DNA of 64,000 bases from positions 214,819 to 278,818 of the forward strand of contig OX638318.1 in NCBI GenBank assembly GCA_951812585.1. Reading direction: 5' to 3'. Shown in pieces: positions 51,638 through 60,245 of this stretch (its first letter is position 1; the number at the start of each line of letters is the position of its first letter). Made by a program: the position numbers and the translations under genes. Source of the stretch: Rhodothermales bacterium. GTDB lineage: Bacteria > Bacteroidota > Rhodothermia > Rhodothermales > Bin80. A model generated the notes under the pieces. That model did not search any database and had not been told where the DNA came from. It worked only from the letters and a program-made list of their open reading frames with translations.

Positions 51638-52496
51638 CCATAACCCAATGTGTGGGTCGCCCCACACGCCCCGCGCTGCAGGGGATCGAAACAGCAAGGA
51701 CTCATTTACCGACCCGCAAACCACGCCAGAGCGTAAAAAGCGCCCAGAATCGCCGTAAGTCGGGCAAATACCCGATCACGCGGGCATCTAGGGCGATTCT
51801 GACACGCAGAACTGAAAACGGCGCCATACGGCCTCTGTAAGCCGCGTAGAGCCGTTCTGACGGCCAGTAAGGGTTTCGGCAATTCTTCACCATCCCGCCC
51901 TACGGGCGCCTGAGCGGCCTCTATGGCGCCTCAGCGGGGTTTGGCTGCCGTTCTGTACAACCCCAGTGTCGTATACGATCCCGTTACAAGGAAAGGCACA
52001 CGGAACATCTCTCTACCCCCTGCAGCCCCGCCTATGTATTGTGACTCTGGACTATGGCGGTGGAAACCGGCTACCGCGGACCGTATCCGTGGAGTAAGCT
52101 TGTTCAGTGGTGGTACGACGAGGTATCCATTGAGATCAATAAACTGAATAGTCGTCCGGACCCGGTCATGGCCGCGCCGCTGATCATGGTGAATCAAAAA
52201 AGCCGACAGGCACGACTGTTTTCTTCGCCCGGCCGCCTCGTTCACCGGCCCTACGGCCAAGCCTACCTCCCCCGGGCTTCGCCCCCGGCGAAGAGTGGGG
52301 GCCCAAGCTGCCCGTGTTGCCCTTGGCACTGTATGATCTGGGATAGCACGTCGTGGAGCAAGCTAAACACCATGATTGCGTGGTGCTGGCCTCGGGTCCC
52401 TACCGCGAAGCCTGTGCAGTCTAATTCGCTGAGGCAACAATCAGGAGGACCTTAATGAAGAAGACAAAGCTGTCTTTCGTGACCGCTGCGCAGGAA

Positions 52497-52570
52497 GAGC
52501 CGTGTGAGTCGAGAGGCTCACGCACGGTTCTGTGAGGGCCCGGGGGTGAAATTCCCCCGGGCTACTCGAC
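52497..52570 (+). ncRNA. group II intron remnant: domains V and VI, 3' end
   Basis: Bases 52497-52530 are exactly 34 long and fold as group II domain V. The catalytic AGC follows the first G, an eight-pair lower stem is closed by GGTTC, a two-base CG bulge lies on the 3' side, and a six-pair upper stem carries a GAGA tetraloop. Next is a domain-VI-like hairpin (GCCCGGGGG paired with CCCCCGGGC) and the end CTACTCGAC. The A seven bases before the last base fits the branch point. No reverse transcriptase or domain I is found upstream, so the element is a 3' fragment. Confidence 0.7.
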
Positions 52571-52834
52571 AACCCCCAGGAGTGGCTTGCCGACGTGTTG
52601 GACCGCGTTTCTACACATCCCGCCCGCAGGGGGTGCGGAACAGTCCGCTGATCAACAGCTGTCTGTCGTTACCGCCACACACAAAGCAGCGGAGCCTCGA
52701 AGCTCGGACGTCCTTAACGAAAAATCTGGTTGTCGCTGAGGAAAAAGTAGTTGCGTTGATCAGTTTATGTCGTACAATTGCACATAACAGCGGGGCGCTG
52801 TGCCCTGCCGCTTATCACCAAACCCAGAAGGCTT

Positions 52835-53164
52835 ATGTTCAGCACCGTAGCTAGGACTCGCACACTGGTCGTTATGACGTGTACCGTGGTGACGTGTACC
52901 GTTTTAGCGTACTTGGCGGGTGTGCTCATCGCTTTCGCTTTTGGTCCCTCTCACGCAGAGGCTGTCCCAACAAAATGTGAGTATGACATATGTATACCGG
53001 CACCGGGGCCGGAGGGTGAGGATAACGACAATGCATTTTGTCTGGCTTCTGATCCAGAAAATCTCGTGGCCAAAGATTGCGATGCTTGGGTGGTGAAGGA
53101 AGAGGATGGAGACTATCGGTATGGGTGCGAAGAGACCGACTGCGTGATCACTGCTTCTCCGTAA
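52835..53164 (+). CDS. small secreted six-cysteine protein
   Basis: From ATG 52835 a 109-residue precursor has a basic start, a long hydrophobic leader (about residues 8-38) ending SHAEA, and a mature acidic part of about 67 residues beginning VPTKCEYDICIPAPG. The mature part holds exactly six cysteines (KCE, DIC, AFC, KDC, YGC, TDC), enough for three disulfides. I know no family for it. It is followed after 47 bases by a propeller protein and then a thioredoxin-like protein, all on the same strand. The layout recalls the small-peptide (NVEALA-type) plus BF3164-like propeller loci of Bacteroidota, without clear sequence identity. Confidence 0.65.
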   Translation: MFSTVARTRTLVVMTCTVVTCTVLAYLAGVLIAFAFGPSHAEAVPTKCEYDICIPAPGPEGEDNDNAFCLASDPENLVAKDCDAWVVKEEDGDYRYGCEETDCVITASP

Positions 53165-53211
53165 GCTGGAGGTATCCTTGACTTTCTTGAACTAGCCGGG
53201 TAGGTAGGCAA

Positions 53212-54393
53212 TTGGGTTTCCGGAGCGGCCAGCGTGTGCTGCTGCTGATTCTGGCAGCGAGCTTGGCGTATTGCCAGAGTGATCGGAAGGAGGGTGTCAC
53301 GCTTCACCCCACAGAGGAGAATATCCCTGTCGTCACTGACCCCCGGTTTATTCTGCATGAGCAAGAGGTTGCCACTCCATGGCTGGAGTTCACCGATCTA
53401 CAGGGGTACACCATCGGAGTCAATGAAGGTGCCCGTAATGACATGATTGGAATGGTAACCGATTTGGCTGTCACTCCTGAAGCACTCTACTATACCGACG
53501 CTGAGTACTTCGAGGTACGTGTCTACGACTTCAGTGGCAATTTGAAAACAATAATTGGTGGCACAAAGGGTGTGGGCCCGGGAGAGTTTTGGTTTCCCGC
53601 CAGAGTAGCAGTTACAGAAGATGGGGAGCGGCTCATCGTCGGTGATGGTGGAAATTCGGTTGAGGTGTTTCGCCGGCAGGGTTCAACCTATACGCTGGAG
53701 CATTCCTTCCGAGCGGCGGGCCTATTTTTGAGCGGCGATATCTGTGTGATGCACGGCCACATTTACACGACCGGGTACGCGGATGAGCTGGACGGAATTA
53801 TTCACAAGTATACGCTTGACGGGAAACACGTGGCGTCTTTCGGGACACCCTACATGGCTACCGAGCGCATTGTCCGTGAAAAGATGTCTTCGCAAGCAAG
53901 TCTAGGGTGCAATGGTACGCATCGTATCATTGGCCACACCAATTGGTCTATTCCGGTTTTCACCGGCTACTCGGACACCGGAGAGGAAATATGGCGTGTG
54001 AAGTTTGCCGATGTAGTGCTTGCCCCTGTTAGGGAGAGACATCGTTCTGGCCAAGGCCCAACAGTAGGAAATTTATCTGCGAGTATTGGAGAAGCCTCAA
54101 ATATCAGAATAACTGCAGGTATACCGAGCTCGGCTGCATTCACGGTGACGTACCGCATCCGAGGCGAAAACAATTCTGGAAGGCATCATTTTTTTCGCGT
54201 AGACGCGAAAACTGGACAGGGAGAGTATCTGGGTTGGTACCCGAATTGGCATGAAGACGTTAGCCAACCCTCTGTATTCGCGTTAGATACAGAGCGAGTG
54301 TACACCGTTAGCAATAAGCCGTATCCTCAGATCGGGATTTACCGGCGTCCGGATTCTCTGCCTCAAAGACCCACTCCCGGCAGCCATCCGTAA
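53212..54393 (+). CDS. exported six-bladed beta-propeller protein
   Basis: The frame starts at TTG 53212 and encodes 393 residues. The leader (VLLLILAASLAYC) ends at a cysteine, but the tyrosine before it makes a poor lipobox, so it may be a lipoprotein or a soluble periplasmic protein. NHL/BF3164-like blades recur: MVTDLAVTPEALYYTD, FWFPARVAVTEDGERLIVGDGG, GIIHKYTLDGKHVASFG and HFFRVDAKTGQGEYLGWYP. Base composition is clearly lower in GC than the core genes, suggesting transfer. It lies between the six-cysteine protein and the thioredoxin-like gene. Confidence 0.75.
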   Translation: MGFRSGQRVLLLILAASLAYCQSDRKEGVTLHPTEENIPVVTDPRFILHEQEVATPWLEFTDLQGYTIGVNEGARNDMIGMVTDLAVTPEALYYTDAEYFEVRVYDFSGNLKTIIGGTKGVGPGEFWFPARVAVTEDGERLIVGDGGNSVEVFRRQGSTYTLEHSFRAAGLFLSGDICVMHGHIYTTGYADELDGIIHKYTLDGKHVASFGTPYMATERIVREKMSSQASLGCNGTHRIIGHTNWSIPVFTGYSDTGEEIWRVKFADVVLAPVRERHRSGQGPTVGNLSASIGEASNIRITAGIPSSAAFTVTYRIRGENNSGRHHFFRVDAKTGQGEYLGWYPNWHEDVSQPSVFALDTERVYTVSNKPYPQIGIYRRPDSLPQRPTPGSHP

Positions 54394-54406
54394 GCGTCCC
54401 TGGCTT

Positions 54407-55012
54407 TTGGTTTTCATCGTCGTCCTGGCAGGGGCTTTCGTGTCAGGTATTACCGATCTCTTGCCTAGGCCATCGGTGGATATACATTGGCCAAAAAACT
54501 CTGCCGATACCGTAATGTCGGATCGCTACGTGCCATCTTACTCCACTCAACAGGGTAAAGAGCTCGTGATGGTGTACCTCGGTTCTTCAACGTGTGCCTA
54601 CGCTAATCGTCCGGAGATGCCAGAAGCGGTTGAGCGCGCCAAGCTTGCTCTGCAGCAGAAGGCACAGGAAAATGGATTTCTGTTCTCGACCATAGGTGTA
54701 TCCATCGATTGGGATACCGGAAAGGGCTTGGCTCATCTTGCCAAATTCGGGCTCTTTGATGAAATCGTGACGGGAAGAAAATGGCAAGGTATAGGAGCCC
54801 GCCAGTTTTTATGGACGGGGTTGTCGGCTACGCCCCAAGTGCTCGTAGTGTCTCGGATGATTCAGACACCCACGCCAGAACAGCCCCGCCAATCCTATCG
54901 CGTAACTGGAAACAACGAGGTGATCCGTAAGGTGGGAATCACGCAGATAATCAATTGGCTCGAACAAGGTGCTCCACTTGCCTTAGATCGACTTGCACAA
55001 TCAGAGAATTAG
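54407..55012 (+). CDS. membrane-anchored thioredoxin-like protein with one cysteine
   Basis: A TTG at 54407 gives 201 residues. The true start may lie slightly upstream, where the frame reads IRKRPWLL as a positively charged lead into the membrane helix (VFIVVLAGAFVSGITDLL). The outside domain has a thioredoxin-like order: GKELVMVYLGSSTCAYANRPEMPEAVERA (strand, active-site loop, helix), FSTIGVSIDWD, then SATPQVLVVSR with a cis-proline-like TP. The active loop has one cysteine (TCAYA) instead of CxxC, as in some peroxiredoxin- or TlpA-like variants. A role on the disulfides of the six-cysteine neighbour is a tempting inference. Confidence 0.65.
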   Translation: MVFIVVLAGAFVSGITDLLPRPSVDIHWPKNSADTVMSDRYVPSYSTQQGKELVMVYLGSSTCAYANRPEMPEAVERAKLALQQKAQENGFLFSTIGVSIDWDTGKGLAHLAKFGLFDEIVTGRKWQGIGARQFLWTGLSATPQVLVVSRMIQTPTPEQPRQSYRVTGNNEVIRKVGITQIINWLEQGAPLALDRLAQSEN

Positions 55013-55736: not shown

Positions 55737-55933
55737 TTTTTTTCCACTGTAACTTTTTGTGCATAATTGTGCAAACGGTACCAAATCTTTGCGTATCCCG
55801 CCGCCAACCATCATAGGCTTAAGCAAGCGCTTCCGAGCGCAGCAACCGGGCTGCGAGGCCTACGAGGTGCCTTCGCCCGAGCACCATGTAGTCTGTAATG
55901 TCTATGTCGCGTGTGAGACAAAAGCTGCGGGCG

Positions 55934-57258
55934 ATGCGTTCTCCCGCACTCCTGGCGACTTTCCTGCTGGCCTACTGGGTCGCCCGCCAGCTGCGACAGC
56001 GGCTTCACCCCTGAGCGCCCTCCGTCTTCGGAGGGCGTATCCCCTACCGCCCTGGTGCAGGCCTGGTACGAGGAATCCCTTGACAGTCTGCAGGAGGAGC
56101 GCCCTCGGGAAGTACAGTAATGCGGAGATACTGGAGGCGTTTGTACGGCAGTATCCGCCGGACTGGTCGCAGGCTGTCGAGGTACCGCTGGCTGATGGCG
56201 GCAAGCGCGTTATCACGGTGCTGGGCCCAGGGCAGCCGAACACTACGCATTCACATGCTAAGCTGGGCGTAGTCCGAACCCTTTCGGTAGATGTGAACCC
56301 TAGCGGCGAGGTGGTAGGCTTCCGCCTGCTGGAGTTTGTCAGTCCGGACACGCTTGACGCTGCGGGCTTTGCCGACTATGTAGGGCAGTGGGAAGATCGG
56401 GACTTTGGGGACTTGCGGATGCTCACCAGTGAGTACGATATCGCCTACGAGTCCAGGGTATGTGAGGTATATACGCCCGGTGAGGGCTTCAAGACGGTGG
56501 ATGTGACGTTGGAGGAAGTGTCGGGGATGGGGAAGACGGCAGCCACCTGGTATTGCTGGGTGTCGGGCGAATGGGAGGTTTGCGTTGTGGAACCTTGCCA
56601 TGAGCCAGACTCGGCTGACTGCCCTGATCCTGATGAAGCAGAAGAACACTGCACTTCGTACGTCGAAATCACCTGTGTATTGGTGGATGGTGGCGGCGGC
56701 GGTGGTGATGGTGACGATGAGGATGACGATGAGGATGACGATGAGGATGACGAAGACACCTGTGCCTGTGACGACGAAGAGGCCTGCAAGATGGAGGCGG
56801 AATATGATTCGTTGAACGTTAAGTTCACCATCGCCTGTGACCTGTACACCACGACCGGTGGATCGGAGCATTTCTCCTGGTCGGAGCTAAACGATGGCTG
56901 GAAGGACGGCAATCCGCACACAGGGTATGGATACATCGCGTCGGGGATCACGGACCGTCTGGAGGCCCTGCGAACACTGGCGCTTGCTGACACCCTCCTG
57001 GCTGTCCAGTCATTGCCGCTGAGCAGCGGTTACCGGTGCCCCCACGGCAACGAAGCTGTAAACGGTGTACGCAACAGCCGGCATCAGGCGGGCACGGGCG
57101 TTGATATCAGCACCAGGACGCTTTGGGGCCACCTGCCTATTTCCGAGTGGAAGGCACGATATGATACGCTCAATACCTATGCACGTGTAGTGGGCTTCAA
57201 TGAGCGCTTCAACTTTGACAAGTACCCCGACCATCACCTGCATGCAGCAGTTGAATAA
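55934..57258 (+). pseudogene. M15-type peptidase lipoprotein with two frameshifts
   Basis: The intact C-terminal frame (about 56100-57258) has a beta-rich domain (VITVLGPGQPNTTHSHAKLG, VVGFRLLEFVSPD), an Asp/Glu run (GDDEDDDEDDDEDDEDTCAC) and a peptidase M15-like domain. The zinc residues are in SGYRCPHGNEAVNG, SRHQAGTGVDI and DHHLHAAV. Its start is scattered over three frames. ATG 55934 opens a leader MRSPALLATFLLAYWVA. One extra base shifts to SCDSGFTPERPPSSEG...ALVQAWYEESLDSLQEE, and a second shift is needed to reach YSNAEILEAFVRQYPPDW. The open frame begun at 55759 is not homologous there. D-Ala-D-Ala carboxypeptidase-like activity would be expected of the intact form. Confidence 0.6.
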
Positions 57259-59517: not shown

Positions 59518-59900
59518 ACAACGTTCAACTTAGGGCCCATTCCCTCGACGAGCAGTACCCCGCGTCTTCAGTAGTACGGGCCCATCCGCCACCCTGACGG
59601 CCCAGCCTGCCCCGCGCGGGGTCCCGGTTGCTGCGTGCAACAGCACCGACAGGGCTTCCCGTGTTGCCCCTTCCCTGATCTTCCATGCGGGCCCGCGCCC
59701 ATACCCCTGGCGCGTCGGTCTCGGTGCTTCTGACGCACTCTTCCCGAGCCGCCGCGGTCTTCCCCATAAAAACGGAAGGTCGACACTCGCAACACCCGTT
59801 TCGAGGCCTGCGCGGCGTTCACGCACGTTCCGGCCCGCAGGGTCGCTAAGCCACGTAACGGGGCCCGTTAACCCCAATGCTTCATTCCATGTCGTTACCT
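59518..59900 (-). ncRNA. probable 5' part of the group II intron
   Basis: The 380 bases before the reverse transcriptase start have no credible gene, are rich in short GC-rich inverted repeats and AAGACGCGGG-like turns, and occupy the place of intron domains I-III. The 5' boundary motif (GUGYG) was not located with confidence, so the assignment rests mainly on position. Confidence 0.35.
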
Positions 59901-60245
59901 CCACAATACGCTGAGGCCGCTACCAACTGGAGCGACCGTTGTTGGGCAGGGTCCGCACCCGCCACAGGAAAGCGCCTTTTCACGGCGCACAATTTATCCG
60001 GGCTAGCCATTGGCAGCGGTGTGCCTTGGCCCCCTGGCCTGCAAGCCGCAGACCAGATGTCCGGACATGCCCCGCTTGGTGCGGACGTTCGCGATGCCGC
60101 ACAGACTGAGGCCGCCCGGTGCAGCAGGCGTGCCTTCCAGATGGCGCGGCGGCCGGAATGGAGATTAAAAGTCCGTTTGGCCTGCTATATTCTGTAAATG
60201 GCAGCCGCAACTTCGCAGCCTGCACATCACTCGAGCTTCTGAAGC
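59901..60245. other. gene-free stretch before the MFS gene; CCCGGATAAAT site 3
   Basis: Contains the inverted third copy of the recurrent motif (ATTTATCCGGGCTAG, 59992-60006) next to an inverted repeat around GGCGCACAATT, then the upstream region of the MFS gene. TTAAAA and TATATT, 15 bases apart, near 60166-60192 might be promoter elements with short spacing. Confidence 0.35.

Follow-up and report, generated by a model that had tools for sequence, protein, structure and literature searches.

A recurrent cassette encoding a six-cysteine exported peptide, a propeller and a thioredoxin-like protein in a Rhodothermales bacterium

The cassette and its surroundings

The window, a 64,000-nucleotide stretch from a Rhodothermales genome of 3.2 Mb held in one contig, carries at positions 52835–55012 three genes on one strand, encoding in order a small peptide, a propeller and a thioredoxin-like protein (Table 1). 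The gaps between them are 47 and 13 nt, a spacing that suggests co-transcription, and a promoter and terminator scan of the cassette returned no consensus element and nothing above chance. The GC content of the cassette is 52.3%, compared with approximately 60% in both flanks, which places it in the lowest 0.2% of 2.2-kb stretches within the window. The initial annotation had described three consecutive same-strand genes of lower GC content than the surrounding DNA, and both statements hold, with all three open reading frames present as described. However, in 55 of 61 loci propellers of this kind are AT-richer than the DNA on either side, irrespective of the GC content of the host, and we therefore regard low GC as a trait of the family and not as proof of a foreign origin or recent transfer. 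A plasmid-borne cassette was also rejected, as the thioredoxin-like protein has no plasmid match.

Table 1. Features of the cassette and its upstream neighbour (window positions)
Feature	Positions	Strand	Basis and remarks
Group II intron 3′ end (domain V/VI); neighbour, outside the unit	52495–52570	+	Rfam RF00029, 61.5 bits
AGAAGG, likely ribosome-binding site of gene 1	52826–52831	+	Inferred from sequence only
Gene 1, exported acidic peptide, 109 aa precursor	52835–53164	+	ATG start; sequence
Gene 2, exported propeller, 393 aa, HPTxENIP family, NHL/DUF5128-like, lipobox-like LAYC	53212–54393	+	TTG start; sequence, profiles
Gene 3, thioredoxin-fold protein with membrane anchor, cis-Pro and a single Cys in the active loop (CAYA instead of CxxC)	54407–55012	+	TTG start uncertain; frame open from ~54287

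The distance from the intron domain V/VI to the start of the cassette is 265 nt, and a second group II intron piece, with a D1–D4 match, lies at 59823–59964 on the minus strand; the upstream flank looks like mobile-element debris. At 55759–57258 (+) there is a 499-aa open reading frame with a weak C-terminal match to Peptidase_M15, in which an acidic Asp/Glu low-complexity stretch adjoins a cysteine-containing segment.

The gene 1 product has a hydrophobic signal and an HAEA site, followed by a mature part of about 67 residues containing exactly six cysteines in the spacing C-x4-C-(15)-C-(12)-C-(15)-C-x4-C; two further cysteines lie inside the signal. By a rough count its net charge is about −14, in keeping with the small acidic exported protein first described. 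No family among the Pfam and NCBIfam profiles covers the peptide, and membership of NVEALA was rejected, as PF14055 matches neither the peptide nor anything else in its own genome at E 10. The AF2 model of the peptide (pLDDT 55.7) is too uncertain to be read.

Gene 2 is preceded by GGTAGG upstream of its TTG start, and its product displays the HPTxENIP signature after the signal. A lipobox-like motif is present at the N-terminus of 45 of 75 propeller homologues. Propeller profiles reach NHL propellers, and nine of 13 homologues match DUF5128 (PF17170), with a best E-value of 2.4e-12, although the gene 2 protein itself scores 12.9 bits against a Pfam cut-off of 22.9. On these profile comparisons the protein is a distant DUF5128/NHL relative, and its homology to propellers of both kinds suggests a six-bladed form.

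The gene 3 product combines an N-terminal hydrophobic helix with the active loop GSSTCAYAN, and its AF2 model (pLDDT 88) has a thioredoxin fold, for which the best structural matches were tryparedoxin, CcmG/DsbE and TlpA/ResA, with Z up to 9.1. These data agree with the membrane-anchored thioredoxin-like protein with a single active-loop cysteine that was initially described. Pro143 is invariant in alignment A2, and the predicted fold, the N-terminal active cysteine and the cis-Pro together place the protein in the thioredoxin superfamily; no Redoxin or thioredoxin profile in Pfam or NCBIfam matched it. Genes 2 and 3 had both been assigned TTG starts. That of gene 2 (53212) stands, but that of gene 3 is doubtful because its frame is open further upstream and its homologues begin approximately 15 residues earlier, at an ATG or GTG codon that is replaced by CTC in the window.

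Recurrence in other genomes

The three-gene unit recurs in many marine bacteria, and the neighbourhood proposed from this one locus is thus conserved in many other genomes. Propellers occupy 11 places in the genome that contains the window, three of which are complete cassettes (in the window and at about 1.320 and 2.409 Mb). At about 2.853 and 1.226 Mb the peptide and propeller genes are intact and the thioredoxin-like gene is broken, which indicates that the thioredoxin-like protein is not needed in cis. The remaining places include several decayed remnants, although some frameshifts in MAGs may be sequencing errors. In one decayed copy, L068 (G000:C1, ~334.9–336.3 kb), a truncated propeller lies in one frame with a truncated thioredoxin-like gene, an in-frame joining that seems to be the product of a deletion.

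Propellers were found in 13 of 15 other genomes of the same family. A genome of the same genus has two propellers only, both divergent, and so does not share the window copy. Of 245 genomes of the class, 51 encode the thioredoxin-like protein, as do 25 of 395 in a sample of the phylum, with loci partly counted in two collections; the protein also occurs in MAGs labelled Latescibacterota, Poribacteria and Gemmatimonadota, whose contig labels may be wrong. By sequence, the nearest named records are MAGs of Rhodothermales, and their isolate names suggest that several of them came from sponges. In nearly all loci, across families and other phyla, the propeller lies directly upstream of the thioredoxin-like gene, the order being reversed in two outside loci (L220 and L222). 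Distances between thioredoxin-like proteins and between propellers correlate with r=0.892 (permutation maximum 0.309), and the two proteins are inherited as a unit, as operon linkage alone would also predict. No other gene family recurs among the neighbours of the cassettes.

Two loci have other arrangements. The first, in a Gemmatimonadota MAG (L123:1308-4315), comprises four genes, for a six-cysteine peptide, a DsbA/Thioredoxin_4 protein with a CPAC site (E 3.8e-20), a propeller and a monothiol thioredoxin-like protein, the DsbA-type gene standing between those for peptide and propeller. The other, on the minus strand of L124 at ~7.2–9 kb, is the second peptide–propeller locus of its MAG, with two other cysteine-rich peptides and a more distant propeller, without a thioredoxin-like gene.

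Peptides with the cysteine pattern of gene 1 are found upstream of the homologous propellers. When 1.48 Mb of strand sequence was scanned with a simple six-cysteine pattern, 57 matches were obtained, and 30 of these immediately preceded a propeller, compared with 0.8 expected; as the collections overlap, these 30 represent about 21 distinct sequences. When the loci are read less strictly, about 45 distinct peptides emerge; almost all are acidic, and some have eight cysteines. Some loci carry two or three peptides in tandem. Those in L163, L158, L165, L167 and L168 are different six-cysteine peptides, and some of these loci have two propellers and one thioredoxin-like gene. The invariant columns of the peptide alignments A4 and A5 are all cysteines and the rest of the peptide is poorly conserved, so that selection among the homologues, a point on which the candidate peptide could have failed, does fall on the cysteines.

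The layout had been likened to the small-peptide/BF3164-propeller loci of Bacteroidota, and we examined this in the NVEALA-bearing genome G329. Like the cassette, loci that combine NVEALA (PF14055) with TolB_like/BF3164 (PF15869) or DUF5128 (PF17170) are multi-copy and encode a small exported cysteine-containing peptide immediately ahead of an exported six-bladed propeller. The NVEALA peptides of G329 lie in the vicinity of TolB_like and DUF5128 propellers, and two of the peptides immediately precede a propeller. The propeller profile of the cassette finds two of these propellers, at 40 and 19 bits. In contrast, its thioredoxin-like profile found nothing in the G329 cluster, and the G329 peptides belong to another family with mostly three to five cysteines. 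The analogy of layout therefore stands and that of family membership does not. Since G329 shares the layout and the propeller matches and has no thioredoxin-like protein, the cassette is a variant of the peptide–propeller locus type in which the peptide belongs to a different family and is accompanied by an additional thiol partner.

The active site of the thioredoxin-like family

The thioredoxin-like proteins have a conserved signature of their own (GS-S-x-C and FDEI-x-GR). The nucleophilic cysteine is invariant in all 58 sequences, and the resolving position, the third residue after it, is occupied only by Cys, Ser or Ala. The resolving cysteine is replaced (Cxx[SA]) in 39 of 52 cassette members and in none of six stand-alone homologues. 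A rapidly built tree, in which several branches are long, requires as many as 11 switches between the two states at this position, and well-supported branches account for at least four of them. The cassette proteins have thus repeatedly turned monothiol. The stand-alone relatives (L159, L166, L225, L226, L227 and L175) are secreted, have CGPC, CVPC or CTPC sites with no cassette propeller alongside, and are likely to be ancestors or sisters of the cassette proteins.

One subclade (L066, L067, L068, L077, L078 and L080) keeps a CxWC site, and the peptides of L067, L077, L078 and L080 have seven or eight cysteines and include an additional CGxC. Enzyme and peptide may have changed together in this subclade, although ancestry is a confounder. 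A general link between eight-cysteine peptides and CxxC proteins, which occur together in L067, L078, L080 and L160 (L077 having seven cysteines), is suggestive; we do not claim it, because L031 and L119 pair eight cysteines with a monothiol protein, L124, L161 and L162 pair six cysteines with CxxC, and the supporting cases come mostly from one clade.

Two known groups offer comparisons. Gene 3 resembles TlpA, ResA and CcmG (DsbE) in its predicted fold, membrane anchor, cis-Pro and N-terminal active cysteine. It differs from the classical TlpA/DsbE proteins in its CAYA site, the usual lack of a resolving cysteine in its family, the signature described above and the lack of a Pfam or NCBIfam match. 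In NHLRC2 a thioredoxin-like domain is fused to a six-bladed NHL propeller, with the active loop beside the binding face of the propeller, and its bacterial homologues are not in conserved operons (PMC6107167). The cassette shares with NHLRC2 and SOQ1 a thioredoxin fold, an NHL-type propeller and a non-classical active loop (CCINC in NHLRC2/SOQ1), and SOQ1 is among the weak matches of both the propeller profile and the thioredoxin-like model. However, NHLRC2 and SOQ1 are single fused chains without a peptide and with no close sequence relation to the cassette, which has separate genes and in which the CC(I/V)NC motif is absent.

A possible role in the folding and display of a disulfide peptide

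A thioredoxin-type protein that retains the attacking cysteine without the resolving one forms long-lived mixed disulfides, and serves as an isomerase, a holdase or a sensor. Proofreading of the adjacent six-cysteine peptide is the simplest job for such a protein. We propose, at about even odds, that the cassette provides an exported disulfide-folded peptide, that a thiol protein dedicated to this peptide proofreads it and that the propeller binds it. The peptide would be exported and held by about three disulfides, which a general DsbA-type oxidase would supply. Anchored in the membrane and facing the periplasm, the gene 3 protein would be a private thiol–disulfide helper with the peptide as its presumed substrate. 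Because its nucleophilic cysteine is always kept and the resolving one is usually Ser or Ala, it would most likely form mixed disulfides with the peptide, in isomerization, proofreading or holding. The initial annotation had suggested that an oxidoreductase folds or releases the peptide, a suggestion strengthened by the DsbA-type protein of L123, where the two thiol proteins would look like the expected pair of oxidase and isomerase. The propeller, exported and usually lipid-anchored, may bind the folded peptide as a scaffold, presenter or receptor, as their linkage suggests. Duplication and decay of the cassettes in each genome would leave every strain with divergent peptide–propeller pairs, and we infer that this birth-and-death pattern fits a role in surface recognition, signalling or competition.

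The alternative that survives best, although unlikely, is that the thioredoxin-like protein serves the propeller and that the peptide is loosely linked and has another job. Some loci have no peptide, the pair of propeller and thioredoxin-like genes being the more widely conserved, and the propellers have conserved cysteines (C178 and C233). However, loose linkage would not preserve the peptide in its upstream position in different families and phyla, as is observed here.

We consider it improbable that the peptide is a disulfide-rich bacteriocin or a toxin for which the propeller lipoprotein acts as immunity or carrier protein. Multiple, divergent and decaying copies and tandem peptides would suit a weapon under diversifying turnover, but the strongly acidic charge of the peptides sets them apart from most membrane-active peptides and speaks against an antimicrobial identity. 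In addition, dN/dS was below 1 in five of six close peptide pairs (the exception being L108/L110, at about 1.2), indicating mostly purifying selection, and no export or lysis gene recurs. No match of the cassette to known anti-phage defence proteins was found in PADLOC-DB, and on this ground a defence system was also rejected.

A redox or metal sensor, in which the reduced peptide binds metal or senses an oxidant, the propeller transmits or stores and the thioredoxin-like protein resets the thiols, appears quite improbable. Acidic cysteine-rich peptides beside a monothiol protein could sense redox state or metals, and the matches given by Foldseek for the gene 3 model include Sco copper chaperones. 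However, Sco proteins require a CxxxC and a His, neither of which is present here, the peptide alignments A4 and A5 contain no conserved His or Met ligands, and no regulator or transporter recurs nearby.

The weakest alternative, which we regard as very improbable, is a two-subunit enzyme like methylamine dehydrogenase or quinohemoprotein amine dehydrogenase, with the peptide as cofactor-bearing small subunit, the propeller as large subunit and the thioredoxin-like protein as a MauD-like maturase. The methylamine dehydrogenase cluster (MauB propeller, MauA, MauD and MauE) does have the same three types of part, namely a small disulfide-rich subunit, a propeller and a MauD-type thioredoxin protein. 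According to work cited in PMC7794033, MauE and MauD are needed for methylamine metabolism and MauE has been proposed to form disulfides, which would suit such an enzyme. However, alignments A4 and A5 contain no conserved Trp pair (the TTQ pair) and no CxxCH, and hence no tryptophylquinone site, up to three different peptides accompany one propeller, and no MauE, MauG, cytochrome or other electron carrier, radical SAM protein or other neighbour recurs, so that a MauA/MauB/MauD-type enzyme was rejected.

The folded and proofread peptide thus remains our preferred reading, and the cassette looks like an unannotated, privately serviced disulfide-peptide system, related in layout to the uncharacterized NVEALA-peptide loci of Bacteroides. 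Such peptide–propeller loci are multi-copy in G329, yet our literature search gave no paper on NVEALA or DUF5128, and BF3164 was mentioned once, in passing. By adding a thiol protein as a linked partner, the cassette makes both dedicated thioredoxin-like folding or proofreading and binding of the peptide by the propeller testable, and the repeated loss of the resolving cysteine, confined to cassette members, offers a natural experiment on the way in which thioredoxin folds acquire a new function. More tentatively, and with less confidence than in the reading itself, these loci may represent a widespread, unnamed system of secreted disulfide peptides, each a ligand with a private monothiol folding helper and a propeller as receptor or presenter, in which the divergent cassettes act as a strain recognition code. 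If so, the repeated loss of the resolving cysteine would be a natural series leading from a thioredoxin oxidoreductase to a mixed-disulfide isomerase or holdase.
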